Source: Diprion similis
Lineage: Eukaryota; Arthropoda; Insecta; Hymenoptera; Diprionidae
NCBI RefSeq assembly: GCF_021155765.1
Contig: NC_060110.1
Location: forward strand, 13,910,001 to 13,974,000
DNA: 64,000 nt
Direction: 5' to 3'
The notes under the pieces are model-generated. The model saw only the letters and a list, made by a program, of their open reading frames with translations, made no database searches and was not told where the DNA came from. Both the position numbers and the translations under genes were made by a program. Of the stretch, positions 1 to 60,400 are shown in pieces (the stretch's first letter is position 1; each line of letters opens with the position of its first letter).

Positions 1-3000
1 AACACATGAAAAAGGGTCTAGGACCAACAGCAGAGAAATGACGACGAAAATCTGCAGTTTTTCGGCTGTTACTTTTCAGGCGCTGCTCGCAGCGTATTGG
101 GACTGCGCTTAATCGATTCCTCTCGCAAAATTACGTCGGAATAGTGCCCTAAGAAATTAATTGCAGCCTTTTTCGAAATCGTCGAAAGTTTCGACAAAAA
201 TCCAAAGGGGTTAGCCTTAGTTTTTTCTTGATTTTCTGAGCCGAAAATTTTGCGTCTTCGAATCGATTAGTATGACCCTTCCTAGAGTAATTCGACCACC
301 AGGAACTCAGAAAACACATGAAAAAGGGCCTAGGACCAACAGCAGAGAAATGACGACGAAAATCTGCAGTTTTTCGGCTGTAACTTTTCAGGCGCTGCTC
401 GCAGCGTGTTGAGACTGCGCTTAATCGATTCCTCCCGCAAAATTACGTCGGAATAGTGCCCTAAGAAATTAATTGCAGCCCTTTTCAAAATCGTTTAAAT
501 TTTCGACAAAAATCCAAAGGGGTTAGCCTTAGTTTTTTCTTGATTTTCGGAGCCGAAAATTTTGCGTCTCCGAATCGATTAGTATGACCCTTTCTAGAGT
601 AATTCGACCACGAGGAACTCAGAAAACACATGAAAAAGGGTCTAGGACCAACAGCAGAGAAATGACGACGAAAATCTGCAGTTTTTCGGCTGTAACTTTT
701 CAGGCGCTGCTCGCAGCGTATTGGGACTGCGCTTAATCGATTCCTCTCGCAAAATTACGTCGGAATAGTGCCCTAAGAAATTATTTGCAGCCTTTTTCAA
801 AATCGTCGAAATTTTCGACAAAAATCCAAAGGGGTTAGCCTTAGTTTTTTCTTGATTTTCGGAGCCGAAAATTTCGCGTCTCCGAATCGATTAGTATGAC
901 CCTTTCTAGAGTAATTCGACCACCAGGAACTCAGAAAACACATGAAAAAGGGTCTAGGACCAACAGCAGAGAATTAAGGACGAAAATCTGCAGTTTTTCG
1001 GCTGTCACTTTTCAGGCGCTGCTCGCAGCGTATTCGGACTGCGCTTAATCGATTCCTCTCGCAAAATTACGTCGGAATAGTGCCCTAAGAAATTAATTGC
1101 AGCCTTTTTCGAAATCGTCGAAAGTTTCGACAAAAATCCAAAGGGGTTAGCCTTAGTTTTTTCGTGATTTTCGTAGCCGAAAATTTGGCGTCTCCGAATC
1201 GGTTAGTATGACCCTTTCTAGAGTAATTCGACCACCAGGAACTCAGAAAACACATGAAAAAGGGTCTAGGACCAACAGCAGAGAAATGACGACAAAAATC
1301 TGCAGTTTTTCAGCTGTAACTTTTCAGGCGCTGCTCGCAGCGTATTGGGACTGCGCTTAATCGATTCCTCTCGCAAAATTACGTCGGAATAGTGCCCTAA
1401 GAAATTAATTGCAGCCTTTTTCGAAATCGTCGAAAGTTTCGACAAAAATCCAAAGGGGTTAGCCTTAGTTTTTTCTTGATTTTCGGAGCCGAAAATTTTG
1501 CGTCTTCGAATCGATTAGTATGACCCTTTCTAGAGTAATTCGACCACCAGGAACTCAGAAAACACATGAAAAAGGGTCTCGGATCAACAGCAGAGAAATG
1601 ACGACGAAAATCTGCAGTTTTTCGGCTGTAACTTTTCAGGCGCTGCTCGCAGCGTATTGGGACTGCGCCTAATCGATTCCTCTCGCAAAATTACGTCGGA
1701 ATAGTGGCCCAAGAAATTAATTGCAGCCTTTTTCAAAATCGTCGAAATTTTTGACAAAAATCCAAAGGGGTTAGCCTTAGTTTTTTCTTGATTTTCGGAG
1801 CCGAAAATTTTGCGTCTCCGAATCGATTAGTATGACCCTTTCTAGAGGAATTCGACCACCAGGAACTCAGAAAACACATGAAAAAGGGTCTAGGACCAAC
1901 AGCAGAGAAATGACGACGAAAATCTGCAGTTTTTCAGCTGTAACTTTTCAGGCGCTGCTCGCAGCGTATTGGGACTGCGCTTAATCGATTCCTCTCGCAA
2001 AATTACGTCGGAATAGTGCCCTAAGAAATTAATTGCAGCCTTTTTCAAAATCGTCGAAATTTTCGACAAAAATCCAAAGGGGTTAGCCTTAGTTTTTTCT
2101 TGATTTTCGGAGCCGAAAATTTTGCGTCTTTGAATCGATTAGTATGACCCTTTCTAGAGTAATTCGACCACCAGGAACTCAGAAAACACATGAAAAAGGG
2201 TCTAGGACCAACAGCAGAGAAATGACGACGAAAATCTGCAGTTTTTCGGCTGTAACTTTTCAGGCGCTGCTCGCAGCGTATTGGGACTGCGCTTAATCGA
2301 TTCCTCTCGCAAAATTACGTCGGAATAGTGCCCTAAGAAATTAATTGCAGCCTTTTTCAAAATCGTCGAAATTTTCGACAAAAATCCAAAGAGGTTAGCC
2401 TTAGTTTTTTCTTGATTTTCGTAGCCGAAAATTTTGCGTCTCCGAATCGATTAGTATGACCCTTTCTAGAGTAATTCGACCACCAGGAACTCAGAAAACA
2501 CATGAAAAAGGGTCTAGGACCAACAGCAGAGAAATGACGACGAAACTCTGCAGTTTTTCGGCTGTAACTTTTCAGGCGCTGCTCGCAGCGTATTCGGACT
2601 GCGCTTAATCGATTCCTCTCGCAAAATTACGTCGGAATAGTGCCCCAAGAAATTAATTGCAGCCTTTTTCATAATCGTCGAAATTTTCGACAAAAATCCA
2701 AAGGGGTTAGCCTCAGTTTTTTCTTGATTTTCGGAGCCGAAAATTTTGCGTCTTCGAATCGATTAGTATGACCCTTTCTACAGTAATTCGACCACCAGGA
2801 ACTCAGAAAACACATGAAAAAGGGTCTAGGACCAACAGCAGAGAAATGACGACGGAAATCTGCAGTTTTTCGGCTCTAACTATTCAGGCGCTGCTCGCAG
2901 CGTATTGGGACTGCGCTTAATCGATTCCTCTCGCAAAATTACGTCGGAATAGTGCCCTAAGAAATTAATTCCAGCCCTTTTCAAAATCGTCGAAATTTTC

Positions 3001-5455
3001 GACAAAAATCCAAAGGGTCTAGCCTTCGTTTTTTCTCGATTTTCGGAGCCAAAAATTTCGCGTCTCCGAATCGATTAGTATGACCCTTTCTAGAGTAATT
3101 CGACCACCAGGAACTCAGAAAACACATGAAAAAGGGCCTAGGACCAACAGCAGAGAAATGACGACGAAAATCTGCAGTTTTTCGGCTATAACTTTTCAGG
3201 CGCTGCTCGCAGCGTATTGGGACTGCGCTTAATCGATTCCTCTCGCAAAATTACGTCGGAATAGTGCCCTAAGAAATTAATTGGAGCCCTTTTCAAAATC
3301 GTTTAAATTTTCGACAAAAATCCAAAGGGGTTAGCCTTAGTTTTTTCTTGATTTTCGGAGCCGAAAATTTTGCGTCTCTGAATCGACTAGTATGACCCTT
3401 TCTAGAGTAATTCGACCACCAGGAACTCAGAAAACACATGAAAAAGGGTCTAGGACCAACAGCAGAGAAATGACGACGAAAATCTGCAGTTTTTCGGCTG
3501 TAACTTTTCCGGCGCTGCTCGCAGCGTATTGGGACTGCGCTTAATCGATTCCTCTCGCAAAATTACGTCGGACTAGTGCCCCAAGAAATTAATTGCAGCC
3601 TTTTTCAAAATCGTCGAAATTTTCGACACAAATCCAAAGGGGTTAGCCTTAGTTTTTTCTTGATTTTCGGAGCCGAAAATTTTGCGTCTCCGAATCGATT
3701 AGTATGACCCTTTCTAGAGTAATTCGACCACCAGGAACTCAGAAAACACATGAAAAAGGGTCCAGGACCAACAGCAGAGAAATGACGACGAAAATCTGCA
3801 GTTTTTCGGCTGTAACTTTTCAGGCGCTGCTCGCAGCGTATTGGGACTGCGCTTAATCGATTCCTCTCGCAAAATTACGTCGGACTAGTGCCCCAAGAAA
3901 TTAATTGCAGCCTTTTTCAAAATCGTCGAAATTTTCGACAAAAATCCAAAGGGGTTAGCCTTAGTTTTTTCTTGATTTTCGGAGACGAAAATTTTGCGTC
4001 TCCGAATCGATTAGTATGACCCTTTCTAGAGTAGTTCGACCACCAGGAACTCAGAAAACACATGAAAAAGGGTCCAGGACCAACAGCAGAGAAATGACGA
4101 CGAAAATCTGGAGTTTTTCGGCTGTAACTTCTCCGGCGCTGCTCGCAGCGTATTGGGACTGCGCTTAATCGATTCCTCTCGCAAAATTACGTCGGAATAG
4201 TGCCCTAAGAAATTATTTGCAGCCCTTTTCAAAATCGTTTAAATTTTCGACAAAAATCCAAAGGGGTTAGCCTTAGTTTTTTCTTGATTTTCGGAGCCGA
4301 AAATTTTGCGTCTCCGAATCGATTAGTATGACCCTTTCTAGAGTAATTCGACCACCAGGAACTCAGAAAACACATGAAAAAGGGTCTAGGACCAACAGCA
4401 GAGAAATGACGACGAAAATCTGCAGTTTTTCGGCTGTAACTTTTCAGGCGCTGCTCTCAGCGTATTAGGGCTGCGCTCAATCGATTCCTCTCGCAAAATT
4501 ACGTCGGAATAGTGCCCTAAGAAATTAATTGCAGCCTTTTTCAAAATCGTCGAAATTTTCGACAAAAATCCAAAGGGGTTAGCCTTAGTTTTTTCTTGAT
4601 TTTCGGAGCCGAAAATTTTGCGTCTTCGAATCGATTAGTATGACCCTTTCTAGAGTAATTCGACCACCAGGAACTCAGAAAACACATGAAAAAGGGTCTA
4701 GGATCAACAGCAGAGAAATGACGACGAAAATCTGCAGTTTTTCGGCTGTAACTTTTCAGGCGCTGCTCTCAGCGTATTAGGGCTGCGCTTAATCGATTCC
4801 TCTCGCAAAATTACGTCGGAATAGTGCCCCAAGAAATTAATTGCAGCCTTTTTCAAAATCGTCGAAATTTTTGACAAAAATCCAAAGGGGTTAGCCTTAG
4901 TTTTTTCTTGATTTTCGGAGCCGAAAATTTTGCGTTTCCGAATCGATGAGTATGACCCTTTCTAGAGTAATTCGACCACCAGGAACTCAGAAAACACATG
5001 AAAAAGGGCCTAGGACCAACAGCAGAGAAATGACGACGAAAATCTGCAGTTTTTCGGCTGTAACTTTTCAGGCGCTGCTCTCAGCGTATTAGGACTGCGC
5101 CTCATCGATTTCTCTCGCAAAATTACGTCGGAATAGTGCCCTAAGAAATTAGTTGCAGCCTTCTACAAAATCGTCGAAATTTCCGACAAAAATCCAAAGG
5201 GGTTAGCCTTTGTTTTTTCTCGATTTTCGGAGCCGAAAATTTTGCGTCACTGAACCGATTAGTATGACCCTTTCTGGAGTAATTCGACCACCAGGAACCA
5301 GAAAACACATGAAAAAGGGTCTAGGACCAACAGCAGAGAAATGACGACGAAAATTTGCAGTTTTTCGGCTGTAACTTTTCAGGCGCTGCTTGCAGCGTAT
5401 CGGGACTGCGCTCAATTGATTTTTTTTTCAAAATCACTGTCGGATAAGTGTCCCA
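1..5455. repeat. 312-bp tandem satellite array (about 17.5 monomers)
   Basis: A head-to-tail satellite with a very regular 312-bp period. The landmark AACACATGAAAAAGGG recurs at 1, 313, 625, 937, 1249, 1561, 1873, 2185, 2497, 2809, 3121, 3433, 3745, 4057, 4369, 4681, 4993 and 5304. The last step is one base short because of a single-base deletion near 5297. Copies differ by scattered substitutions at a few percent, and the final copy decays after about 5440. The array is cut by the left edge, so its full size is unknown. Each monomer holds three short dyads (see findings). ORFs inside it only reflect the repeat. Such arrays are typical of centromeric or pericentromeric heterochromatin, but location is inference. 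Confidence 0.98.
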
Positions 5456-41725: not shown

Positions 41726-43615
41726 AATCTGGTAATATGTTCGAGTTTTGGTATTTGTTGAAATTCATAGAATTTAAAGATCGGCTATTTCATCAAGATG
41801 AATTGGTCTCAAATCGAATTGAAGGTATAGGTGAAATTTGATCTCAACACTATTTACTTTAACTGATTGTGAGACCTTTGATTTTTTCTACGAAATGATA
41901 TCTTTACATATGTAGGTTATTATTTAAGTCTAACGCACATTCGCTGGTTAGCCCCATAGCAGCTGTGCACAAAATTTATTGTTTATGTTGGTCACAGGGG
42001 CTAATCTCATGCATATACTCCGGCTCTACTTCAGATTAATTTCTAATATTTTTCCGGTGTAGACTGTACATAGTTTCTAAAAATTGTTGTCGTGACATCG
42101 ATATGACGCATAGGAAAGACGAAAAAGAATCGGCGCAATTCAAATTGTCACACGTGACACTACATGACTACTGATTTCCGAAATACGATTTTATTCGTGC
42201 AGTTTTTTATAAACACGAATATTTTCCTTTGTTGTATTCATCGAAACTTTGGCAATTTTGAGGACAAAACTTTACTAGTCCGAATGTCTAAGAATTTGGG
42301 TGTTTTTATCCGTTTTTTTTTTTTTTTTTTTTTTTACTACAACTAATTTCAAAGATTTTGTAAAATCAAGGTTTCCCGATGGTTCAATGTTGTACATTGA
42401 TTTGCGAAATACGTAGTTTTTGTTTAAGTATTGGAATATGAATTAGGTATCCTGATGAGCTATTATAGTGGCCTTAAATTTAGAATATACGCGCGATTGA
42501 GAACCTCATTATTGTAATAACTCAAAAATTATTCAGTAGTGATTGTCATTTACCTAAGACACGCAGACATATCGATATCAATCATCTCAATTCAAATATT
42601 ACATTCCAGTTGGCGAACGGTCAAACATATGTTTTTTCTTACACCATGAAAAATTTCGTCCGCCACGTTTGAATTTATGATTTATGACGGTCTTTTTTTT
42701 TTTTTTTTACAACGTTTTGAATCTGCTGACGAAGTCCTAATCAACAATTGAATTTGTGTTTAATTCATTCTGTTTTTAACAGTTTCGGAATATGAACTCT
42801 CAGCATTAGTACAATCAGTGCACTGCAACGGAATGCTTTAAATATTTTTATTCAAACACTTTCCATTTGAAAGTTTGAAGTCATTCGATCGGCAGTCAAA
42901 AACAGTTTATAGTGTAAGTGAAAATATTGAGGAATTAGATTAATTACCCGCACACCACGTGCATGACCATTGTGTATTAGTGTAATCTGATAATGATAAA
43001 AGGCAAGTTGGTAAATAGTTTAAGAGAAATGTACAGAGTAACTTTTTCCAACCTCCGCTCCATTGTTCCTGGTGTACATACACGTTTAATGCGTGTATAC
43101 GTCTACGTACGTATAGTTGTGTCTGTCTCATTATGCAGTAACGACAAACTATGTATAAATATATAGGTATATTTTTTGCTGTACTAAATATCACGTTATA
43201 CATTATTTCTAACTGTTGATCAAGACAACAGTTGATGTGAGGGCTTATTTATTAACCGTATACGAATAGTTGATAATATTATACTGATACAATTATGGTA
43301 CTGATTATTGTAGTAAATGATATAATTACTTATACGATATGGGTCATCGCGAGCACGTGTAGAAATATTGTTATTATTGTAATAAATTATTTTAAACTAT
43401 AACTCACGAGTACACTAGCCGCCCTCATACTCAAATCCCATTTATTTATACCGTATGTCCAATAGAATCGAGTAATCATGTCTGTATAACGATTCGAACA
43501 AGTACAAGTGTATTCACAGCATTTGTTACATTCATAAAGTGTAAGACTTACCAGCTCGAGGATTCGGCGTTATCAGTTCTGAACTGTCCCGCAGCTACGA
43601 TTCTCTTCGCTTCAT
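41726..43615. other. Intergenic region between convergent genes
   Basis: The plus-strand AGPAT copy 2 and the minus-strand repetitive-protein gene end here facing each other. No exon is supported. T-rich tracts lie at about 42315-42336 and 42692-42708. On the minus strand an AATAAA (TTTATT near 43247) could end the neighbouring gene. Confidence 0.45.
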
Positions 43616-46600
43616 TCAATCCAGGACAAGATGATCCAACCTCTCTGAAGGAAAAGCGTAACGCCTGTCGGACATTTCTATCACTCGTAATCCTCTGTCA
43701 GACACGTGAGATTGTTCGCCGACGAGAACCGGCACAAGAGTGTAAACATTTTGCGATTCTTCGAAATTCCGATACGATCCTGCCCTCTGCGTTAGATAGT
43801 CGTAACCATTTCGATCAAAGAGATTCCCTCTGCGAGCATGATATGGCGGCGATTTGACGTAGGTTGAACAGGAACCTGCCGACTGAGGCTCTGCACAATC
43901 AGCCACGGATTTTGGATCGTCGGCATACTGAGAGGATTTTCTTGAGAGGAAATAATTCGCTACCCGTCGAAGGAGAGCCGGTCTGCTCGACGTCGTTTGC
44001 GCCTCTCTCGCATCCGGCAGATTGGGATCCCTTCGTGTTGAAAAACTTCCAAAATCTGCCGGAATGTAGAATTCATCGAATCTATAGTGGGCGTTTTTAT
44101 TCTGTCGAGAGCGCGATGACGGTGATCCGGATACTTTGCTGGTCGCCTCTTCGTCGGTTGTAATTGGCTCGAAATCGTTGGACGTCATTGAGCTGGTCGT
44201 CGGTACTGATCCGAGCGGATTAAACCGTGGTGAGAAGTAATTGATGGTAGGATCAAACCGCTGCTGGCCCCAGGGATGCGGCTCTTTCTTGTTTACGCGG
44301 CGACTAGATTTTGGAAAATTAAACCCGGTCCGAATTGGACGATGTATAGGATCCGAATGCGGATACGTTTGTCCGAAATCCGGTTTTGGTATCAAAGAAG
44401 ATACGCGATAATTGTGATAAGTTTGTCGACGGCAGAAGGGAACCTTCTCTGTTGGCGTGATACCTGGACTTACTGATGATACCGTTCGCTTGTCAGAATT
44501 ACACGATCTTGCCGAGGACGGAGTTACGTCTCGTGTATATTTTGATGCCTGCGATGAATTACACAGCTTTCTGGGTCCGCAGCACTTCGGGCATTTTTTA
44601 CTCTTGCGCTTGAATGGGATAAGCAGCTTTTTGTAGTGATTTCTTTTCACACTCTTCTTACGATGGCACACCGAAGGTATGTCGCCATCTGGAAACCACA
44701 CCTCTGCCGGAAGCTTATCGACAGCACCACACACGCTGATCGCTTCCTCCGCAGTTGTCCATTTGGGTACGGCAGTGGTTGCTTCTTCAGTATTCACACC
44801 CCTCGAAGTATCCTGATCGTCTGAAGAGCTCTCCGATGTCGTGCCGGTCTTTATAGACCAGCCGCTGTCACTGGTTAGATTCTCTGCGTATTTTTCAGGC
44901 TCGTCACTTACTTCTTGGGTACCGGCAGCAGCATCGGCGATTTTTACTCTTCTCGAGCTCTCAGGTAGTCTCATCTCCGTCGACTTTGAACTGGCAGGCT
45001 CTTCCAATGTTTGAGTTTTTTTATTATACTTGAGTTTTGAATTATCGTGGACTTCTTGCTCAGCTGATGATTTTGGAGATTTTTGTGTCTCTTTATTGTC
45101 CTTCGTTTTTTCTTGTCTAGTAATTTTCCTCAATACTTCAACAGAATCATCTGACTCCGTACCATCAATAGATGTACTCGAAGATGATGAATTCTCTACG
45201 TCTTTCAGATGCTCTCGTCTTTTTTTCGCAGATACGTGGACTGGTTTTTCGATCGAACTTGTCGACTCTGTATCTCGGGGCGTTGAACTCGAGAATGACA
45301 ATTTTTCTGAAGCCATTCCATGTCTTCTCCTTTTTTTTGTTTCAATATCAGGAAGCTTTCTAACAGATTTTTCTGACTCTGTACTAAGAGTACTTGTACT
45401 CGAGGGTGGAGATTTTTTGGATTTTCGGTTCTTCCGATTTTTCTTTACAACTTCGTTTGATTCTTCAACTGAGGTGTCTGATTCAGTGCTAATGGAATAT
45501 GCGCTGGAGGATGGTGGTTTTTCTTCTTTCATAAGATTTCGTCTTTTTCTATTAACAATTTTACTCGGGACGTCAGCCGTATTATCCGAATCTGTATCTA
45601 GAGTGGCTGACTTTGAATGTGGTGATCTTGCCGTCTTCCTTCGTCTCCTTTTTTCTTTCGGAGCAATTTCAATCGATTTTTCAAATGAGCTATTCAACTC
45701 CGCACCAAAAGTATCTGTACTAGGGGATGGTGATTTTTCCCTTTCATTTTTCTTTTTTCTTTTTTGATTCACAACCTCAGTTTGTACCTCTTCCGTACTG
45801 TCTGATTCTGTATCTAAGGTAGCTGTTCTGGAGGATGGAGATTTAGTTTTTTCTTTTCGATGCCTCTCTCGTTTTTTCGTAACAATTTCGGTTGGTTCTG
45901 CAACCGAACTATCCGACTCACCACCAAGCGTAGTCATAGTCGCAGGTAGTGATTTTTCCGTTTTCGCTCGATTTCTCCTTTTTTTCTCAACAGTTTGAAC
46001 AGGTTCCTCGAGCGAATGATCAAATTCTGTACCAACGTTAGCTGTCCTTAAGGATGGTAACTTTTCAGTTTCTTTTCTATTCCTTCTTCTCTTCGTAGTA
46101 ATTTCAGTTGGTTCTTCAACCGAATTATCCGACTCTCTATTAGGGATGACCGTCCCCGCGGGTGGAGCTTTTTCTATTCTCTTTTGAGTCTTTCTTTTTG
46201 TCGAAACAACTTCCGTTGGCTCTTCAAGCAAACCATCCGGCTCAGTACTAATGGCAGTTGTCCTTGAGGTTCCCGACTTCTCAATTTCCGTTTGATTCCT
46301 TCTTCTTTTTTTTACAACCATTTCAATTGGTTTTTCTACCGTACTATCTAACTCCGTATCAACCACAGCTGCTTTCGAAGATGGCGATTTTTCTGTTGCT
46401 CTTTGATCCCTCACCTTTTTTTTCTTAGCAACTTCAGTTGGTTTTTCAAGCAATTTATCCGGCTCTGCATCAATGTCAGCTACACTCGAGGATTGTAATT
46501 CCGCAGTTTCCTGTTTTTTCGTTTTATTTAAATTATTATTTTTCTTCGTGTTAGTGGTGATGATTGGTCTTTCAGCCGACGTACCCGTCGCTCTACCAGG

Positions 46601-48125
46601 GATAGATGTGCTCAAAGAATGCGATTGCACCGTTTCCTGTTTATCCAATTTCTTCTTACTTTCATTCTTTTTTTGATTATTTTTACCCGTAGAAGGTTCA
46701 ACGGAATCATTAGGCTGCACGGTAGACGTATTTTTAATCAGAGGTTGGGCTTCCAACACTTCTGCTTTCGGATCAGATTTCGATGAACCTGTGTTTTTAC
46801 GGCATTTATTCAACGGTGTACAAAGAGATCCAAGATTTTGTTTGAAGCTGCCCATGCAAGTAGGAGTTGGTTCGTTTTCATTGTCCTTCGAAACAGTTTC
46901 CGAGGTTGAAATGGTTTGTTGTCGCTCATCCTCACTCGGTTTTCCTGATTTATACAATCTCTTTGGCTTTGTTGTTTGATTAGCATTCTTTTGCCCATCT
47001 ATCTCCAGAGTTTTTACACCTCGTTCGCCATTTACGTTTTTCCGATCCAATGTATCTACTTTCATCGATACGCCACTGTTGGATGTTTTACTCGGTTCAT
47101 TCGCAGACAGTTCCTGAGCCTTGATCTTTCTGCGATTTTGCTTTAGCTTTTTTTCAACTTTACGTGTTTCGATAGAGGCAGAATCATTCGATTCAGCAGT
47201 GTCCACACTACCGCTTGCTTCCGATTTCACAATTTGCTTCTTGTTCTTCTTACCCTTGCTACTATTCACACCGACTATTGCATTCCTATCTTTTTCAGCG
47301 GTTAACTTTTTCTCTTCCGTTTTCAAAGCCTTCCGAGTTTCCTCGCCGTTTCCTATTTTTCTTCCCATTGATTGAACATTGCCACTTGCAGGCTCGCGTT
47401 TTTCTGTTTTATTCGGCTCCTGTTTCTTCGATTTATTTTTGTTTGTTGGTGACGATTTTGACACTAACTTCGAGAAGGCAGACGAATTTTGCTGGTCTCG
47501 AAAATAGTATTCAGACAATACAATATTTTTACCGGATGGCATATAAGGTGGCGAATTCATGGCAGTATCTTCAAACAAAGTTTCACTCGAATCTTGGTTT
47601 TTGTCTATCTGAGAAACAGGTGTTTTTGGTATCTCATTTTGGGACCGATCCTTCAGTTTTCGCAATGTTGCAGTAGAGTTTTTCTTACCAACAGTTTGAT
47701 CTATCATTGCTTTCCTTGCGGATACTTCATTGTTCATTCTTTCATTTTTAATCAACAGCGATTTGACTTTGATCGTATTCACCTCTGCGCGTAATTCGTC
47801 AACTGCCTTTGTCAACGCAGTCATTTGTAATATTACATCGTTTAATTTATCTTGTTTTGAATTATCTGGACGAGACATTTGGCATTCAGTTTTCACAATA
47901 AAATTTAGTTTACTGAAATCTAAAATATGATCCCGTGTAACACTATACGGACTGTTCCTTTTTTTTGTTCTGTCAAAGCATTGAAACAGATGAGCGAGGG
48001 AATAAAAAAAGAGAGAAAATCGTTTAGAATTCAAAATAAACTTACCTTATTGCAAGGAGGCCAAGTTCATGTATACAAAGCACGCCACTGATACGGTTCA
48101 ACTTTCTTCCAATTATTCCTAACAT
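43616..48125 (-). CDS. Large Lys/Ser-rich repetitive protein of unknown function
   Basis: Two exons, 48046-48125 and 43616-47912, joined across a 133-nt GTAAGT...TTTCAG intron, keep one frame of 1,458 residues. An alternative start inside exon 2 (ATG at 47878, MSRPDN) would give 1,420 residues. The N-terminus (MLGIIGRKLNRIS) is basic and partly hydrophobic. A short coiled-coil-like segment follows (ILQMTALTKAVDELRAEV). Residues about 495-980 are some 13 imperfect 36-residue repeats of the form EK-SPSS-x5-TESD-S-x-EEP-x-E-x2-KKRRR, alternating acidic, CK2-like serine stretches with basic clusters that look like nuclear signals. A cysteine/basic cluster KKCPKCCGPRKLC lies near 1131-1143. The last 330 residues are less biased and rich in Arg, Tyr and Phe. 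I recognise no family. Long disorder and many basic clusters suggest a nuclear or chromatin-linked role, but this is inference. Confidence 0.9.
45050..46510 (-). repeat. Coding minisatellite: about 13 copies of a 108-bp (36-codon) unit
   Basis: Within the large minus-strand ORF, units of about 108 nt repeat in frame. Recurring codons give TESD, EEPTE and KKRR at fixed spacing. Copies are well diverged at DNA level but keep length to within a codon or two, so selection appears to act on the charge pattern. Confidence 0.85.
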
Positions 48126-48400
48126 GATCAACGGTTTTCAATTGAATCATTTTCGTTGCTGACTTTACAAATACAGAAAGTCTTCAAAAATGTATATTCA
48201 CCAATATCAGTGTCACCATCTCAGAGTCGTTTGATGGTACGATTTTGAGTCAATGTATAACTTGCTTCACCTCGTTCCATCAAATGACAGAACATTAAGG
48301 TCGGTATTCTAAGTCAGTTCTTATTTTCACGACGGTCTTAAGACAGCTCTAGACGTGCATTGTAGGCGTGGAGCCGTTCGTAAAGTAAGGTAAGGACAGA
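48126..48400. promoter_or_regulatory. Candidate bidirectional promoter region
   Basis: The minus-strand repetitive-protein gene starts at or right of 48125. On the plus strand, TCAGTTCTT (about 48315) is an arthropod-type initiator, and a stretch ending in AAGTAAG-GTAAGG (48390) could be an untranslated first exon for something transcribed rightwards. No ATG in that stretch stays open to the donor. Confidence 0.25.
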
Positions 48401-49710
48401 TTTATTTTATTATTACTATTAAATAACGTATATTAGTATCATACAGCCTAGGTACATTCATCAGTCATCGAGTTGCATTGTATAACGGACTGGCAATTGA
48501 AACAATGTTTGGTTAAATACAAAATTCTTGTATGCCAATACATGTACAATATAATACTATAGCGATTTATTTACAATAATTATAGTAGCGTATGCTTATG
48601 ATGAAATTAAATGTACGTGATCAGTGTTCATATCCAACATATAATTGCATCAGATAATTCTTAGAACATACTGCGTGACATCCAAGGTAAAAATTTTCGC
48701 TAATAGTGTTTAAATCGTAACTATAATCACCCAACTTGAGAGAAGCACATAATGATATTACTGATAGAAAATATTGTACTAAATAACTTAAATTGAATCA
48801 ATGATTCACAATGGTAATATTCGAAATGGCCTCGCTACTAAACATTCTGTGTCCAACAAAATGATGTCTGATACAGTTTCAACTGTTAACTAAGCCTAAA
48901 ATTGCTTGAGCGCTAATCTTGTCTTATAGTCCTGGTCCTCATTTGCTGCTCGATTAGAGGTTTAAAATGTATTCATTGTCTATCATATTTTAACATCTAT
49001 TTGTACACGCGGTGAGTATAAATTGATTGAGAAGGTAGGAAATATAGTTGCACTTATGGCTCAGCGGCGATACATAATTCACTATTACTTATGTTTGTAC
49101 GTTGATACATTCCTTGTGCTATGAAGAGATAATTATTCGAAAAACGGATTAATATTTCTTCACTGCAGTTGAATATTTGAAAAAAAGGAAACACCCTAAA
49201 TTAGTATACGACAACCTTGGGTTTAGCAAAGAGAAAAAAAGTATTTCATCAGATTTTATTGTTACGAATGTAAACTTTTGTATAGTTGAAATTAATTGTT
49301 GCTGTGTTGATGAGTGTTCATTAAAATGAAAATGCACCACTTTTCAACAGCTCCAACAGTTTTTAATTCACTTCAAGTATTGGACTTGTGCTGTACAAGT
49401 AATGCAACGAAAATAGTAACTAGATCAAAAATTATGCTTTTACGGTGTATTATCTTAATTTTTCTATACCGCAACTCTATCTTGTTTAACTAGGTAAGAG
49501 GCAGGTTACATGACAATATCCGATTGTTGCGTGATAAGAATGAGTGGAAGATAACATATACATATGCAAGGTGAAATGAAGCTACCACCTGCTTAATTGA
49601 TGCCGGCATCAAAAAATGACACGTATACATACCCTGAAAGTAGAGTTGCATGTTATAAATGTTACAGCAAATTTTTTAATATACAATGTATATATATATA
49701 TATATATATG

Positions 49711-49741
<31 letters not shown>

Positions 49742-50019
49742 CTTTTAGTTAAAATATTTTTAGAGAGCCTGTATAAGTATGTTACTTCTCTGCGAGGTAC
49801 TCGACATATTTCAATTTTCGATACAAGATAAGTAAGATAAAGATAGGAAAAAATTATAAATGGTATTACGTGGTAAAGTCATTCATAACAATAATAGATA
49901 CCATTTCAGTGTAATAAAAAAATTTTCCAACTATTAAAATCAAATACAATTGTTGTAAAACATGTTACATTGCTTTGTTTTCGAATGACATCATTAGTAT
50001 TTTCGTTTTTTCATTTCAG
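48401..50019. other. AT-rich DNA, no gene recognised
   Basis: If the plus-strand leader (to 48389) and the exon at 50020 belong together, this is their intron. No convincing internal exon was found. Confidence 0.4.
49688..49741. repeat. Compound TA/CA microsatellite
   Basis: A (TA)n run, then GCACACACACA, then a second (TA)n run. It is a nearly pure dinucleotide tract of about 54 bp. Confidence 0.97.
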
Positions 50020-50157
50020 GGCATTCAAGTCTTAATATCAGCAAATCAACAAGAACATTTTATTAAGCACATTCCTTATTATTTCAATCCAAGCCTTGAT
50101 TTGGTAGCGACTATGCCATTCTCAAAAAAGTTATATTTTTCACTCAAAATTAACTAA
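50020..50157 (+). CDS. Orphan candidate terminal exon
   Basis: Behind a good acceptor (GTTTTTTCATTTCAG) a frame stays open for 45 codons to TAA. It reads GIQVLISANQQEHFIKH and ends KLYFSLKIN, with protein-like composition. I recognise no family, and no upstream coding exon was found, so it may be an exon of an unannotated gene, part of a lncRNA, or chance. Confidence 0.25.
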   Translation, partial: GIQVLISANQQEHFIKHIPYYFNPSLDLVATMPFSKKLYFSLKIN

Positions 50158-53100
50158 TGAAGAGAAATTATCTTGCGTTATTGAAATTAGTATAAATTTA
50201 CGTATGTCCAATCATACGATTGGACCATTTTATGTTGCATGACTTTTGTCATCCTGATACAGAGGGTATTTGATTCAATCAATAAATGTTGGTTAGAATG
50301 GAAAAAAATTAGCGACTACGAGCCTCGCAAGTTTGCTAACAAGGATGTATTGAGATAATAGACATTTGTTATTTAGATAAACACACGCTGCCAATTTCGT
50401 TGACTTATTGCTCCATTGCTCGTACGGTGCAATGTTAATACTTAATTGTCTAGTATATCACGTTAAATAAAAATGACTCTGGATTTATAAGTGTTGACTT
50501 TATATAAACAGGGTATAATAGTTCACTACCTGTTTACTTTGGTCCCATCTCATTCCCTCGCTCTCTTCTCCACTATCTTCTAACACTGTGTGCGGCAGCA
50601 GTCTTCACAGTTTGACAAAACTCTACACACTCGTATACTCGCTTGTCCATTAGATACAACGGTCCTTCTTTTGATCCTTTATACACTTTGGAGTTGAAGA
50701 TAGCATTTATCAGCACGTGTTGCAGGCATGCACTATGCACTAGCTCAGTTTAGCCGCCCAGAGTATGGTCTGTCAGGAATTCGGGGGGGAATATTGGGAA
50801 CAGGTCGCCTACAACATACATATTTAATGAGTAACAGTTATATATGATAATAAATAATAATGATTAATTTATAATACGATGAGAAATGATCAATGAATTT
50901 TTTACGTTATTATTGAATTTGATTTTTAATTTGACATCGTTACCAGAATGACAAACAGGTTCTACGGAACACGGCATCAGAAAAATTCGATGTAAGTTTC
51001 AAAAAATTCAATGACTTTGCCACACTAATATTGATTGGATAGACGCCAAAAATTTAGAAATGAAATTTACATTATGCGTATATTTTGTCTTACAAAATTT
51101 TTTATTAATTTTTTTTCTGAATTTCAATAAATACATATAATCATTTATATCCAGAGCTAATGAAAATATTAACTAAAATAAAATGCCGAGCCTTCATAAA
51201 AAAAATTCTTTTCATATGAATACAATAACATAATGAATACTGAAAACACTTAATTGAAAATATTTCTTGCGTAACATGCATAGAAAGTAAGACATGCATC
51301 AATAGAATGGTTTCGAAGGAGTTCTAAAAATCTACGAAAATTGCAAACAGTAAGTGATGTATACCAACACTAATTATCTGTCAAGATAAAATAAAAAGGA
51401 ATTGGTAACCCAGTGACCTTAGTAAATAATATATTCAAAATTTTGATTTAGAAATCCCTTGAGTCTTAAACAATAACACGTACATATCCTGAAATGCATG
51501 TCAAGCATAGAAACACCAACACCCGTGAGTGAAAAGGAAGATTTCTTTTATACACATGAAACTAATTAGAAAGAGAAAATGATGAATTATGATAGTAAGC
51601 TGAAGCAACAACGTAAACATTTATTATTATCGAGGAAAAGGAATTAGATTAGGATTAATAACAAGACAGAACATAGGCACACATCTTACAAATAATGTAT
51701 AAATGTGTGTCTAGTATTCGCACAATTTACGATTATTATGTCATAATCGTTTATATTTTTTAACATAGTATAGTAGTCCCTATATACACATTTATATTGC
51801 AATAATAAGTGTACTTCTTATACAATTTATCTTCACATGAAACTTGTGTTTTACATATTAGAATATGTTCGTGAAGTAACCCTATGTTAGAACCATGAAT
51901 GGCATTTTATCTTTGGAAGGTACAACTACAGATGTATGTGTGTGTATCTATGTTGATGTGCCACAATACGATTCCCAGTATATGGTCTACCAATAATTAT
52001 TACAACTTTTTAACGCATTGTAATACAACTGAATGATAAAAACTTAGTCTACCTACGTGAAAGAACACGTGAAGGGGAAGAAAGCAAAAATGGAAACCTG
52101 ATTCATAGATATTGGTCGCAGTTTTTATCAACAAGGCTTTGAGCCTATAATGTCAATGATACTTCATGAATTATATGCTACATTTAATGTAATACATTAA
52201 ATCTTTCAAGACCAAGAAACCTTCAAAGTGAAATGAACTTACGTGGCTTTATCGATTAAGCTGCTTAATGGAAGTACCATCTATTAAAATTCTACCGTGT
52301 AACCAATTTATAAACAGAGAAAGATATTTCCTATATTTTAAACCGGGGAACTTAATTAGTTTCAGCACAAAACGATGAGTAAAGAAAAACATGAAATGGT
52401 CCAATTTTAGTACATATAACTTAAAAACCGGACCCCAGGAAATTGTTTTACCACATAGGTACGTATTAAATTTCAGCCCATGAATTTTAAGGTTTAAGTA
52501 CTATGGAGAGTAAAAGCTTCAACTACTTTAGCTATATTTTTATTCAGCGTAAAATAATAGCACTCTATAGCTAACAAGTGCCATCAGTGATTGCAGGGCT
52601 CAAATAAAATTACAAATCTGTTCAACGCCAGTCATGCTGATTTTACGTCAAGGTTTATATCGGTCTGATACAAACCCTGTAGAAACAATTGCTCGTCGTT
52701 TTCAGCTTAAGCTCAATTTTTTTTCACATTATTATATGAAAAATATTTGCATTCAAAGAATAATTTTTGTCATATGTTTACATTTTGGCGTATTCAGACT
52801 GTAAGATTCACTTGTACGCATGTGCATGTATGGCGAAATAATAGTTTTAAAAACTGACTGGAGCTCATTCTTAAAGTCGAAACGAGTATGAAAATTCTAC
52901 ACCACTCCTACGATGAATCAATAATATTCGGTCGCACCGCGTATGTAAAGACCCTAATTGTGTGATATTCCACTAGATACCAGTTTCTATTGATCAAAAT
53001 CATTTGATAAAATCGGCATTCCCCAATTTAAAGCATTCTTTACATAAATATGACTATAGTACAAAAATATAAATTCAATTGAATCAAGGATTACTTCACG

Positions 53101-56100
53101 TACAAATTTTTTAGTTTTTCGTTTTTGTATTCACTTGAAACGTCCGATGACGAGTAATATTCCTGAACCGTTACAAGTGTAACAATAATTAATCGAGGAC
53201 ACTATTATATATTATTAAAGTCACTATACATTGCAAATATTCAACTTGGTATACTTATCTGTCGAATATTAAGGCTCTAGGTGGAAGCATTCAGTGTACC
53301 AAACTTCGATTTTATGAAAGGAAAATGTTATTGATTTTCAAATGTACATTTTGTAACAAATTCAACAAAAAGTAGAGTCAGAAAAGAATATATTTGAAAA
53401 TGAAAATATCGACTCAAAGCCGTATTATTCATAATGGTGCGGGTAAATACTGAAGATGAATTTCTCAAATGATCTGAATAAATATTGTTAAGGAGTACTT
53501 TAGGAGTTGAGTTGAATATCCACAAGCAAGTTTATGTTATATCCTTGGGATTCATCATTGTATAGTACTATGAACTAAATGCCATAACTACTTATGTTAA
53601 TGTGATAAATATTATTATTTTTTAGTTTTCACTTTTTTTTTCTAATTGTTATATATTTACCAACATTGTTTTATTTCGTCACAGAAGCGATCAGTTCAGT
53701 GCATTACTACAGTAACGATTTTTCAGCCCCATATTCAGTACTACATGAGAGCGTTCAGTAATTACAAACACAGAAGGAAAATTTATGTTCTCAGTATAAT
53801 TTAATTTGGAAAATTTACAACTAATATCTACTCTGGGGCCACTAATCGCGTTTTTTCTAAGAGATCGTATTAATAATTGACTTATGAATACGGAATGAAT
53901 ATAAGAAACTATCAATTAACTCATGAGACTCTGGTTTCCAAATAACTAGTTACACCGTCTTTTCGTTGTCGTTTGATCTGTGAACTTATTTCTCATTTCA
54001 CATATATCGAAAACAATCTACTACTTACACACAAGTGATTTTTACAGATTGACTTGCGTATAGAAATCATATTCCGATCGAAAACTGAACAGAAATAAAA
54101 ATAAAAATTGAAAAGTTAAAAGTTAATCGAAACTGCCATGTAGGTAAATTTGAACATTTCTTAACATGCTAATAACTACCGAACATGGGACATGGTGCTA
54201 CAGAATAGATTTATAACTTATTAGCCTGGCAACAGTGCATGAATCTGTTAGATATACAATGTATACTGTACAATAACATTCCAATATAATGCCACTCGTG
54301 ACTGCACATATTTTCATAAATAATAAATAATATTTATATATGAACGCAGCACTGCCCGGCTTTGAATGGAATGATACGAGTTAACATTTTTCTTATCACT
54401 TCATTTGAAGAAACATTCACTTTTGCAGTGATATATATCCTTTTATTAAGCAGAACTTGATACATATTTTGGCAATTAATGTCGTAACCTTCAGACGCAT
54501 CAAGTATATTCAGAGATAATAATTTGATGTGATAACATTTACACGACTTACGATTGATACTTTATATTCGAATAGACCAAATAATTGTTGTGACAAATCT
54601 TTAATTTCGTTGACAATAGAGTTAAGGTTTTCATTATCTTTTACGATAAACTTTGAAAGTAGTTACACTATATCACATACTATGATGAAGTAGGTTTTGC
54701 TTTAGATAGCCAATAGTTAAACAATCTTTATGGACACATAGACATTTCTATAAATCAAAATTACCAGGCATCAAATTTATGCTAAAGTTCACTCTCCTGT
54801 TTTCCAATTTTTTTAAATTACTCAGTACTACACTCGTTCAGTATCAATTACTAACATTTAAAATTTAATTAACACAATGATATAATACGTAGAGTGAATA
54901 CGAGATCACTTTATCATAACAGCATGACATTTTTGTCCAATAATAATTGTAAATATCACTGAAAATCGTTATCAAGTAATTATATATAACGATAACATTT
55001 ATTCTTCTATATCAAAAAACAATATCCTGAACTTCAACTGCAAGAAATGCTTATATTTCTAATTTAACTGATCTATTGTATGGAATGCCGGCAGAGTTTA
55101 CTTGTGGTAAGGGCATCTAATAATCACGGCTATTGTTGGTAGACTTTTCAGGACTTAGTTACTCATGAAATCGTTTTTCTTTTACTAAGAATGATAGAAC
55201 TTAAATGAAACCGATTGCTCAATTGATAAATACTGATTTTTTCATCCATTTCAAGGACATGCGCAGCAGGTTCTGATTTTATAAAGCAAAACCATTTCGA
55301 CATCAATTATAATTTCACGCAAACAATAGAGAGACTGGGTCAAAGTGGGACATTCAAGGAAAGAACATCATTATGATTATTCGAATGACATTTTCCCGTT
55401 TCTGTTTGCATATTTGCCAACAAATTAGTTTTTATTCGCGGGACAAAATAGGGTACCTTTGAAAAATGTGAAGAACAATTTTTCATAAAAGTTTTACTTG
55501 TCCCATTTTGCCTCACTTTATACTGGTCTCATCTATATTTTTTACGACAGAAACGTTTTACATGACTAATAATTATATTAGAGCTGCTTTCTTTGCAATT
55601 TTCGAAATTCTTGCAATTGAATAATTTAATATTGCATTTAAACTATATCATTCATTAATAGCAATAAATTTATTTTACATAGAGTTGGATTTGATAGTTC
55701 CGTATAATTTACTTGATTTAACATTGCGAATTGTCCAACACTTGACGAATTATTTTGTCTTTTTTGAAACGTCAGTCATCACATAAAGCGAAAAATCCAA
55801 TTTTCAAGGGTCAAACCTCTCAACTAACGATTCATTAAAATATAATATCTATACATCGTAATATTTACCACTGGATCGTTAGAATGAGTTTTTTTTTGTA
55901 TTCAGTAATTTAACAAGATGAATCTTTCCTCTTTGCAATCCGACATATATTATGTGTATTTAATGTACACTTAAGAACTAAGGTGCCAATACAGGGAATC
56001 TTTGGTGAAAAGACATCCTCCGAGCTACGTGACACCGCCAGTTCCAACAAAAGCAAAAGTTTTCACCAAAAATTTGCTGTATAATTAGCTATGATCTATT

Positions 56101-57452
56101 ATTCAATTGAAACACAGCAGAGACAATCAAAAACTAGATAACTGTACAGGTATGGCTAATGCCAATTTTATATAATTGATATAATATTCAATCGCGATTA
56201 AATGAAATCCCCTTTCTAGAACATTTATCGCAACTCAGAAAGACATATTCATTTCTGTGATCACTCATAATTGAAGTACATACAACACATTTCCAAGCAA
56301 CTTTTGAAGAGTTCACTTCACTCGTAGCACAAAAATTCAATCTGCGTGTAACAATTTTGTGGCTAGAATTACACTAGTTAATAATTGACGTTTAGTCATA
56401 GCCTGTTGAAAGATTGTCTTTATCCAAATTTCCAACAGCCTGATTTATGTTGTAAATAAATGAAATTTCAAGTTTGTATTCAAGTCCAGTATCCAATACG
56501 GGATTTATTATTTTGTCCAGTCCTACAATCCCTTGTAGCATACTTAGATAAGTATACAATTTATAGACATGTCATCTTCTAATACTGTATATTATGACTA
56601 CAAATTTTAGATGAAATTTGACATTTTGAATAAACAGCCATGGCAAGAGCTGAATAAAATTTCTCCGATCTGAGTTATGAACAATTTTCATACTGTAATT
56701 TGTACGCTAGTTTTCACCCTGACTTGTTGGCCAGTACACAAAGTTTGCTAAACTTGGCATCGTCGTACATATGAATTTATACCAAGAAGCAATTTTGAAA
56801 ACCTAGTTCAGATCTGAACAGTAACTATATTCTAGAATCCACCAAAAGGTACCTAAAACTTTTTAGATACTGTTCAATGAATAATCATTATTAGTATAAT
56901 CTTTTTTCTTTTGTAGATACATGAATTTGTCAAAAGAATAATTCAATTTTTTTCAACTCTGGGGTACACGTGCATGTGTGCTTCAATCAATGTATTGCTT
57001 TCATACAAGATGAATTAACCCTTGGTATTAAAACTTGTTAGCCCAGGACTTTTTCTTTTGTGCTCTCAACAATAGTTTTTGTAAAATCGAATACTACTTC
57101 TATCCTGTCGAGCTTTAAGAACGACACACCCAAGGGTAAAGCAGTCTGTTCATGATGGCATGAAATGCAATACGAATAATGTTACACCATACTTTGTGTT
57201 TATTTCCCAATGTCGTATACTTGTATATAGTTTAGAAATCTAACAGTCATTAATTCAGCTTGTAAAATCATGCATAGAAATCAAAAAGTTAGTTGCAAAT
57301 TAGTAAACTTTTATCATAGAATAGAGATTAGAATTAGTTTCTTCTTAACCCTGAACAGTCTACCATTCTACATAAGTTTAATTACTCATTTCAATTTAGA
57401 TAGGCAACTGCAAAGTTCGATATGGCAAGCGATAGCATTTTTTTTTCATTAT
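50158..57452. other. 7.3-kb AT-rich region downstream of dynamin
   Basis: No coding exon is supported on either strand. Part of it may be the dynamin 3' UTR, since TTTATT (AATAAA on minus) occurs repeatedly, but I cannot pick the used site. A somewhat GC-richer island at about 50520-50800 contains, on the minus strand, GTGTATAAAGG and a possible donor, so an unrecognised promoter or first exon may lie there. Confidence 0.45.
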
Positions 57453-60400
57453 TTACTTGATCCTGAATGCATCCATCATCTCGTTCATAGCAGCATTAGC
57501 AGCAGCCTGTGTAGCAGCTTGACCCACTCGTTGCTGCAGCCCACCCCCACGACTAAACACATCAGTTCGTATTTACACTCTAAATTAACTAGAAATAATT
57601 TACGCTTTGCTTAATATAACAATATGCTTGTTTAACGATTCCATTTTCTTTTAAAAGAGCTTCAGAAATAAGGCTGCAAACAATGGATATTGAGTTTTCA
57701 CTCAGGCATCAACATTGTTCTAAACTGATCCGTTTTATATGCATTGTAAATAATTTGGAGCCTCTTCAGAAGGTATGTACATCTTAGAATAGGGTACTTC
57801 TGAGAGGATAATGTGTCAAAAAAAATAATTCCAGCAATTGATTGACAATTTCTAGACATTGGCAAATGTTTTCGATAATAAAACTTGACTAATTTTAACC
57901 CAGATTAAGTCGAACCAAAAATATTGCAACAATTTAAATAGCATTACGTGGTTCACGGACGGCCCCTTACCATTTTTAAGAAATAATCTTCCGGCACTTA
58001 CCCCAACGGGGTGTGGCCATTAAGGAAGAAGAAGAAGTCCTTCAAACTCCAATAAATTATAGGATTAGTTGATTTTCACGAAAGTTTCACGAATATCTTT
58101 ACAATAAAATTGAAAATAAATTTGCATTTCTTTCACTTTCAAATTGATATTCACGTACGTGCACTTTGATAGTAACTGATTTTCAAATGATCATCTTTAC
58201 ACAAGATAAAGAAAATTGAGACTATTGCTGAATAATTTCTTGCAATTTTTCAGAACCTATAAGTAGTCATGTATCACTGGGAAAATTAGCTTATGAACAA
58301 TGATTCTTTTCTCCGATCAAAACTTATAGATGTCATAGCATCGCATTTTTAGTCTTGTATCTTCAAGCATCGACTTACAAAAGAAAGTGCATTATATGAA
58401 TTGAGCACATAATGTTATAATCGGGCGCACCTTAGATTCTTAGTTTCGTGTGTTTAAGCAGCAAATTAACGAATAGAGTGCATCATATAAATTGAGCTCA
58501 TGTTGTGATCAGGCGCCGACATGTCCTTCTTCAGGGAAATCTCCAAGTGATAAAAACATGAGTACGTAATTAAAAAATTACGATGTATTGCTGACATGTG
58601 GACACCTGTACTAAATGACGTCAAAAGAATGCTAATGATATAGTACCGATTGTAGAATGTTGGGTGTTAAATGCAATGTCATGCTGTTATTTCTTACAAT
58701 TGTTATTTGATAAAAACCAGAAACCGAAAACCACTGAATTATAAATATTTTCGAATGGTATATACAAGAGTTACATACAATTTGAAATGCAAGCAGCTCA
58801 ACAGTGGACAAAATAATTTACACATGAACGATAAATATATTTTACACTTTTTTAAGTATCCTAAACACATCATGTTTAAATTAGGAACATACAAGTACTT
58901 GCATTTCATTAATTCTCAGTATTGCCAGGCTAAATTATGCTGTTTGTAACACTAGCAGAGATGTGCAGATTTTAGTAACTACACATGAAAGATGATTTGC
59001 TTGTATATGTATAAGCGAGACGATATCAACAGAAATAGAATTTTATTCAATACTGCCGTTACTGTACATGAGAAAGTGCACGTTGACTCAGCAGCTCGGG
59101 TTCTCTCCAAAATGCAAGACGAACATGATAACATTTGAAAAGCTTTTCACCATATTTAGACTTTCAATGATTACTGAAAAAATGTCTATTTCCACAATGC
59201 GATGATTGAAGCTACATTATTGCCATTGATCGTTTACTATAAATTGAAAGCAATTACGGCAAGGAGTATTTTATAAGTGAACTATACATTTATTGTACAA
59301 ATTTGCACACCTCCAACAGCAATTATCATGTACTATACATAGAATATGTAGATATAGAATACAATTTAGTGAGAACATTTTGAGTATTAAATATTTACGA
59401 ACTAGATGCAACAAATATATATGGGTTAGTAGCGACTAGATGTTAATGTGAAGAAGTTATTGTCGGCGCCTGGAATAAAAAGGAACATTAACACTGCAGC
59501 CCGATTGAACATGAAGCCAAGTTGCCTGGCGTGTAGATTTTGAGACTCAAAAAATCTGGAATTCCATTATTTGTAAAATTTTTCTGTATAAATTGAAAAC
59601 TCCTTTCTACCTAGATATTACATAGATCATTAACACAGACCTGTAGGCAGTCAAGCCAGTAGCAAAGCTTCTTTATATTTAAGCGTATTTGTAGCTGAAT
59701 ACACAAATGTTACCACAAAGCATTCATATACTATCCAAGATTATCAGGTGGTGATTTTTCGTATACGGAATATATTTTTACTTCATCATTCCAGGGATCA
59801 TTCAAAATTAACTTCAATACCTGCCCTGAATATTTTTTTACCACACCCCTGAATAATTCTTGCAATGAACTGCCGTCCATTTATTGATTTTTTGAAGATT
59901 TGAACTCTAAATCTGAACTGTGAGTAACTGGAACATGCTGTTTAAATTATGATCTAATCGTCTATTAGTATAATAGTAAAATCTTCACACAGGTCATCGA
60001 AAACAAGACACCGCTAGAAACACTTAATGTAATTTCAAAGCAGCAGTAAAAATATTTTGGTAAGAAAGTTATCAATTGAAATTCAATTATTTCCACTTTG
60101 TGAAATTTGCGCAGCAACTACGTTACTTCATTTTATTCTAATAATGATTTGATTTTTCAACAGGAGACGATAAATTTTTCTTTTCTTTTTCCTTTCACTC
60201 AAACTCTATAATCCCAATGCAGAAACAAGCATAGTATTACTATGTTGGAGTTTATCAATAGTTCGAAACGGATGATGAAATTGTAAATAAAGTGAGTAAG
60301 GTTGAGATCAGTACTTACGATGGTATGAGTGGTGGTGGCAGGCCAGGGGTGGCTCGGGCTGGAGGGGGTGCACCAGGTCCAGGTCTGTTGGGAATAGCTG

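Follow-up and report, generated by a model that had tools for sequence, protein, structure and literature searches.

A long minus-strand gene of Diprion similis predicted to encode a disordered protein with thirteen charge-alternating repeats

In the genome of the hymenopteran Diprion similis, a window of 64,000 nucleotides (assembly GCF_021155765.1, contig NC_060110.1, positions 13,910,001 to 13,974,000) carries on its minus strand a very long open reading frame, the middle of which is built of 13 diverged repeats with alternating acidic and basic blocks. According to our analysis, the best explanation of this locus, whose positions are given below as those of the window, is a real protein-coding gene with the coding sequence in a single large exon, the product of which would be mostly disordered and about 1,420 residues long. 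By analogy, such a protein could be an oligomerising, disordered block polyampholyte that serves as a scaffold of a nuclear condensate in the manner of Treacle and Nopp140, without the defining sequence features of these proteins, and we assign a probability of about 0.4 to this reading as a whole.

The frame stays open from stop to stop over 1,476 codons (43616-48046). Since the longest stop-free run in 30 dinucleotide-Markov sequences of 64 kilobases (kb), inspected on both strands, did not exceed 193 codons, the length of the frame is far above chance. The coding sequence that we prefer occupies positions 43616..47878 of the minus strand and extends, in one exon, from an ATG (protein start MSRPDN) to a TGA, thus specifying 1,420 residues.

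The repeat array (45047..46465, minus strand) consists of 13 units of 35-37 residues with the consensus ESDxSxExPxExVxKKRRxxxxxEKSPxSxTxxxxT. The starts of the units are spaced 105, 108 or 111 nucleotides apart, all of them multiples of 3, and when each unit was scored with a profile built from the remaining 12, 12 of the 13 units exceeded all 500 of their own shuffles, while unit 11 exceeded 499, being recognized only just. Among the other stop-free frames of at least 20 residues in the window, none matched a profile of the repeats with an E below 0.2, and candidates for further copies, all located upstream of the array, were limited to one weak stretch (2.9 bits) and three with scores below zero, which were rejected. 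On the opposite strand, 250 stop-free codons (45015-45767, plus strand) overlap part of the array, an antisense frame that probably results from the codon composition of the repeats. Sequence drift among the units is heavy, with a mean pairwise identity of 34% of residues and a range of 11-67%. At the nucleotide level, identity between units amounts to 59% at the first codon position, 61% at the second and 51% at the third, and the mean proportions of synonymous (pS) and nonsynonymous (pN) differences are 0.57 and 0.39, with pS being near saturation and the pN/pS ratio only indicative. These sequence comparisons support a purifying pattern between the units.

What is shared by the units to a greater extent than their residues is a charge rhythm. 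If alignment columns 1-12 are taken as the acidic half of the unit and columns 14-26 as the basic half, the basic half is net positive in all 13 units (+2 to +8, the last two units reaching only +2) and the acidic half carries a net negative charge in 12 of them and a charge of 0 in unit 11. Compared with shuffles of the same residues, charges are segregated with a z of 5.5 in the array, against 0.2 in the N-terminal and 2.7 in the C-terminal flank, and the smoothed charge autocorrelation, calculated for even lags of 10-58, peaks at lag 36 with a value of 0.73. In regard to the maintenance of this rhythm, we placed the observed nucleotide differences of each unit randomly on the consensus unit, excluding stops, in 1,000 simulation runs which assume a star phylogeny and a consensus drawn from the same units. 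The observed mean charge contrast of 7.92 was not reached in any of the runs (mean 5.05, standard deviation 0.73), and the number of amino-acid changes per unit, 16.8 observed versus 18.4 simulated, was as low in only 1 of them. The comparison with simulated units supports the view that charge contrast, more than the exact sequence, is maintained in the repeats, and it can be taken as a sign of selection on the charge pattern. The charges of the array are segregated beyond composition, as in a block polyampholyte, and in this respect the original prediction of 13 in-frame, heavily drifted polyampholyte repeats is confirmed. Its description of the units as a strict alternation of an SPSS motif, an acidic and a basic segment needs to be relaxed, as the positive basic half is universal but SPSS is literally present in only 2 of the 13 units, and the acidic half lacks a net negative charge in one.

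Outside the array, the protein shows several distinct parts. Close to the N-terminus a coiled coil is predicted (47750..47854, minus strand; residues 61-95 in P0001 numbering, corresponding to residues 9-43 counted from Met 47878), with hydrophobic residues at 9 of the 10 a/d positions of its heptads. It is the best 35-residue heptad window of the protein, whereas 200 shuffles of the whole protein reached at most 7 such positions, and local shuffles of residues 53-130 reached 9 only once in 2,000. This predicted element was absent from the original prediction. It is followed by a linker rich in Lys, Ser, Asn and Thr and without charge segregation (46466..47749, minus strand), in which residues 486-507 of P0001 constitute the weak degenerate unit of 2.9 bits mentioned above. 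Another, short linker, predicted as disordered, follows the array (44762..45046, minus strand; P0001 residues 997-1091). By the Uversky charge-hydropathy boundary, the array and both linkers are classed as disordered, unlike the coiled-coil stretch. The C-terminal region (43619..44761, minus strand) comprises 381 residues unrelated to the repeats and without a family match in the library and contig searches described below. It contains, after a Lys/Arg-rich stretch, a cluster of cysteines (44561..44593, minus strand; Cys 1148, 1151, 1152 and 1158 of P0001), which has no Pfam match above cut-off and, judged by its residues, is a possible metal site resembling no recognised finger. All 14 four-residue runs of Lys/Arg, in an overlapping count, are within the repeats, while all 15 cysteines of P0001 are outside of them.

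At the 5′ end of the gene, our model departs from the original prediction, which extended the protein upstream through a 133-nucleotide intron (47913-48045) into a second coding exon. Splice sites were ranked with generic matrices not trained on D. similis. Among 3,644 GT sites of the minus strand, the best score belongs to the donor at 48045 (AAG|GTAAGT). The acceptor at 47913 ranks only 926 among 3,278, versus 108 for the acceptor at 47970, which has the same phase and would define an intron of 76 nucleotides (47970..48045, minus strand). As the open frame itself contains donor-like sites ranked 2, 14 and 22 and acceptor-like sites ranked 46, 59 and 79, such ranks cannot prove an intron; one located upstream of Met 47878 is nevertheless plausible from the site sequences, and the previously proposed 133-nucleotide coordinates are probably wrong. 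Coding-likeness was evaluated against 3,000 reference stretches from 48200-60000 (mean 0.176, standard deviation 0.178), a test that is weak for stretches as short as these. The 30 codons from the 47970 acceptor to Met 47878 scored -0.035 in the frame of the protein, a value equalled or exceeded by 91% of reference stretches, and another frame of the same stretch scored 0.426. The exon-1 frame scored 0.307, which is unremarkable given that 22.5% of reference stretches reach it. Since the frame preceding Met 47878 is not coding-like, and since the coiled-coil window begins eight residues downstream of this Met, making it a natural start, we prefer on the sequence a protein of 1,420 residues starting there, with the intron in the 5′ untranslated region (UTR). 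The stretch previously taken as the end of a coding upstream exon (48046..48125, minus strand; MLGII) is here probable 5′ UTR, and the longer N-terminus is probably incorrect. Of the two-exon structure, a plausible intron is retained, but not its length or the coding nature of the upstream exon. At 48150, upstream of the start formerly proposed at 48125, there is an ATG in another frame that has A at -3. At the other end of the gene, a donor-like site at 43551 (CTG|GTAAGT; rank 6 of 3,644) is found 64 nucleotides past the stop, where a stretch of 52% G+C ends and is followed by 34%; it could belong to an intron in the 3′ UTR or indicate a more complex 3′ end.

Searches for relatives agree with the earlier statement that the protein belongs to no recognisable family. 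In Pfam, the whole frame had no match at E<=1 and its three parts had none above cut-off; matches to NpwBP, Preseq_ALAS and CI-B14_5a remained below their own cut-offs and were taken as chance. Neither the Treacle profile (presumably PF03546) nor LisH (presumably PF08513) was among the Pfam matches at E<=1, and the same applies to SRP40_C (PF05022, which we take to be the conserved C-terminal domain of Nopp140/NOLC1), whether the whole frame or the three parts were searched. NCBIfam was searched with the whole frame as well as the C-terminal part, and PDB by phmmer with the whole frame and the N- and C-terminal parts, in each case without a match at E<=1. Homology of the C-terminal region to a known family, which would have spoken against the original prediction, was accordingly found in none of the three collections. 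Matches of the repeat profile in PDB (Astressin2B, E 0.033; NELF-E, E 0.52) were weak and taken as chance, as was a match to PHROG 8184 (E 0.075). The genomes scanned were the insect's own, as the sole eukaryotic one, together with viral and prokaryotic contigs, while Pfam and PDB include eukaryotic families. No relative of the C- or N-terminal part was found in viral contigs, nor of the C-terminal part in prokaryotic ones, by short-peptide-pattern scans that reach close relatives only. The own genome (269 megabases (Mb), 60 contigs) gave the self-match and matches at E 0.04 or weaker; those at E 0.04 and 0.37, which have internal stops, and at E 4.7 were not considered paralogues. An Rfam search of the window returned no match.

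If the parts of the protein are put together, a scaffold function can be envisaged. The N-terminal coiled coil, as its heptads suggest, would tie chains together, and the 13-unit array would present its acidic and basic blocks at regular spacing, so that they might attract opposite blocks on neighbouring chains as well as charged partners such as RNA or DNA. The protein could in this way act as a multivalent condensate scaffold. Judging from the many KKRRR-type clusters in the sequence, it is likely to be nuclear and possibly nucleolar, and its placement in a condensate of that compartment is proposed by analogy with Treacle and similar proteins. Several points weigh against this interpretation, in addition to the saturation of synonymous differences and the simulation assumptions given above. 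With a value of 3, the smallest contrast of a single unit is not beyond chance, as 60 of the 1,000 simulations attain it. Enrichment of phosphorylation motifs was rejected, as counts in the repeats are no higher than in shuffles: S/T-P and CK2-type motifs reached the observed counts in 2,079 and 2,168 of 5,000 shuffles, respectively, with 22 CK2-type motifs versus a shuffle mean of 21.0; phosphorylation is for this reason not built upon here. The C-terminal region is also called disordered, by a smaller margin, and the in-frame donor-like sites of ranks 2 and 14, together with the one at 43551, leave room for unexplained splicing. Furthermore, phase separation of Treacle is described as depending negligibly on the N-terminal domain and as being nucleated by the C-terminal end, which is rich in Lys (PMC11996177). 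Such an end, in Treacle an element of nucleolar localisation, has no counterpart in the protein studied here, which terminates with PSERLDHLVLD, and the analogy is consequently only partial.

Genes in the neighbourhood resemble ordinary animal genes, as judged from 20 longer frames of the window and seven more (two of them repeated) that were given to Pfam, a selection by which other neighbours may be missed. Upstream of the long frame, on the same minus strand, two exons of a dynamin GED (61.1-62.2 kb) are above the Pfam cut-off, the larger part best matching dynamins 3 and 1 in PDB; a PH-like dynamin exon (63.2-63.5 kb) is below cut-off, and a Pro-rich frame without a Pfam match (60.3-60.5 kb) was recognized by eye as a dynamin exon. 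Because the donor of the latter (60318, GTAAGT) overlaps its own TAA stop, the stop would be lost upon splicing at this site and dynamin would continue into a further last exon. The plus strand carries acyltransferase exons, of which that at 40.4-40.8 kb exceeds the Pfam cut-off and that at 39.5 kb narrowly misses it, and CBM_14 exons were found by Pfam at 13.3-14.2 kb. Also taken as chance were a sub-threshold Pfam match to GBP (60.2-60.6 kb) and, the PH-like exon left aside, three others among the neighbours. The window begins with a satellite array (1-5421) of 17.4 copies of 312 base pairs with 96% matches. In a first genome-wide look at this satellite 1,661 candidates were counted and one was scored, an array on the same contig (14.398-14.405 Mb) in 22 pieces, 85-96% identical. 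Exact matches to a 25-mer of the telomere repeat (TTAGG)n numbered 10,300 in forward and 6,745 in reverse orientation genome-wide, with none for the control, and the start of contig C1, as listed, is taken up by this repeat, whose abundance is in keeping with an arthropod.

Other explanations of the locus have been considered. The protein could be a cytoskeletal or sperm-structural one, with basic blocks for binding to microtubules or DNA and with repeats acting as a charged spacer. Long repeats of KSP or KKE type are known in microtubule-associated and axoneme proteins, which evolve fast, and the basic clusters beside Ser/Pro, the N-terminal coiled coil and the lack of any folded domain found would all suit them. 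However, the whole frame has no Pfam match at E<=1, and hence none to models of microtubule-associated repeats, and charges are segregated to an extent that seems unnecessary for a spacer; this explanation is on the unlikely side. Alternatively, the gene could be a diverged orthologue of an insect protein already known, such as Nopp140 or a chromatin protein, the conserved part of which has drifted beyond the reach of profiles. An acidic/basic repeat array between unrelated ends is the layout of Nopp140 and Treacle, and Nopp140 does occur in insects; in Drosophila, its gene is described as giving rise to two isoforms with different tails (PMC12192640). Yet the lack of SRP40_C, Treacle and LisH in the Pfam searches makes such an origin distinctly improbable.

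Two further possibilities concern the gene model itself. The long exon could be an alternative last exon of the upstream dynamin (shibire) gene, as the GED exons, the PH-like exon and the Pro-rich frame share its strand, and the phase 2 donor of the latter is compatible with both acceptors of the long exon. Such a fit has a chance of one in three, though, the distance is 12 kb, the closer donor is better (rank 1 of 3,644 versus 147 for the dynamin donor) and the frame between acceptor and Met 47878 is not coding-like, so that this connection is hardly credible. That the frame is decaying or not expressed, its repeats being left from an old expansion, would agree with the lack of relatives in the collections searched, but 1,476 open codons and the purifying, charge-preserving patterns between the units render it very unlikely.

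With Nopp140 the protein shares alternating acidic and basic disordered repeats, while it is about twice as long as human Nopp140 (about 699 residues) and its CK2-type sites are at chance, in contrast to the acidic serine blocks of Nopp140, rich in CK2 sites. In Ki-67, charge blockiness of disordered repeats is likewise the working principle and is described as raising their phase separation (PMC9106583), with the difference that alternating blocks are gained there by mitotic phosphorylation (PMC9106583) and are here encoded in the sequence. Disordered regions with Lys blocks and Glu-rich segments are reported to be enriched in nucleolar proteins across 11 eukaryotic species, the carrier proteins changing (PMC10936679). 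Treacle itself is presented as an intrinsically disordered block polyampholyte whose condensates are stabilised by alternating charge blocks, and it resembles our protein in length (1,488 residues in isoform d versus 1,420), in a central domain of repeated stretches of alternating charge and in a short N-terminal motif, LisH in Treacle and the predicted coiled coil here (PMC11996177). In place of the S/E-rich stretches with linkers of Treacle, units of 36 residues are present in D. similis. The protein belongs to the known class of block polyampholytes, and its gene is sound and only mildly unusual. The role of Treacle is evolutionarily recent. It may be speculated, as a long shot, that an insect lineage independently evolved a Treacle-like block polyampholyte with a coiled coil, which establishes or adjusts a compartment of the nucleolus or of chromatin and in which selection keeps the charge rhythm as the sequence drifts. 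Should the condensate-scaffold reading hold, the protein would add a possible insect counterpart to the nucleolar polyampholytes of vertebrates, and its 13 diverged units would represent a natural experiment on the features of a disordered repeat kept by selection, namely the charge rhythm and not the letters.

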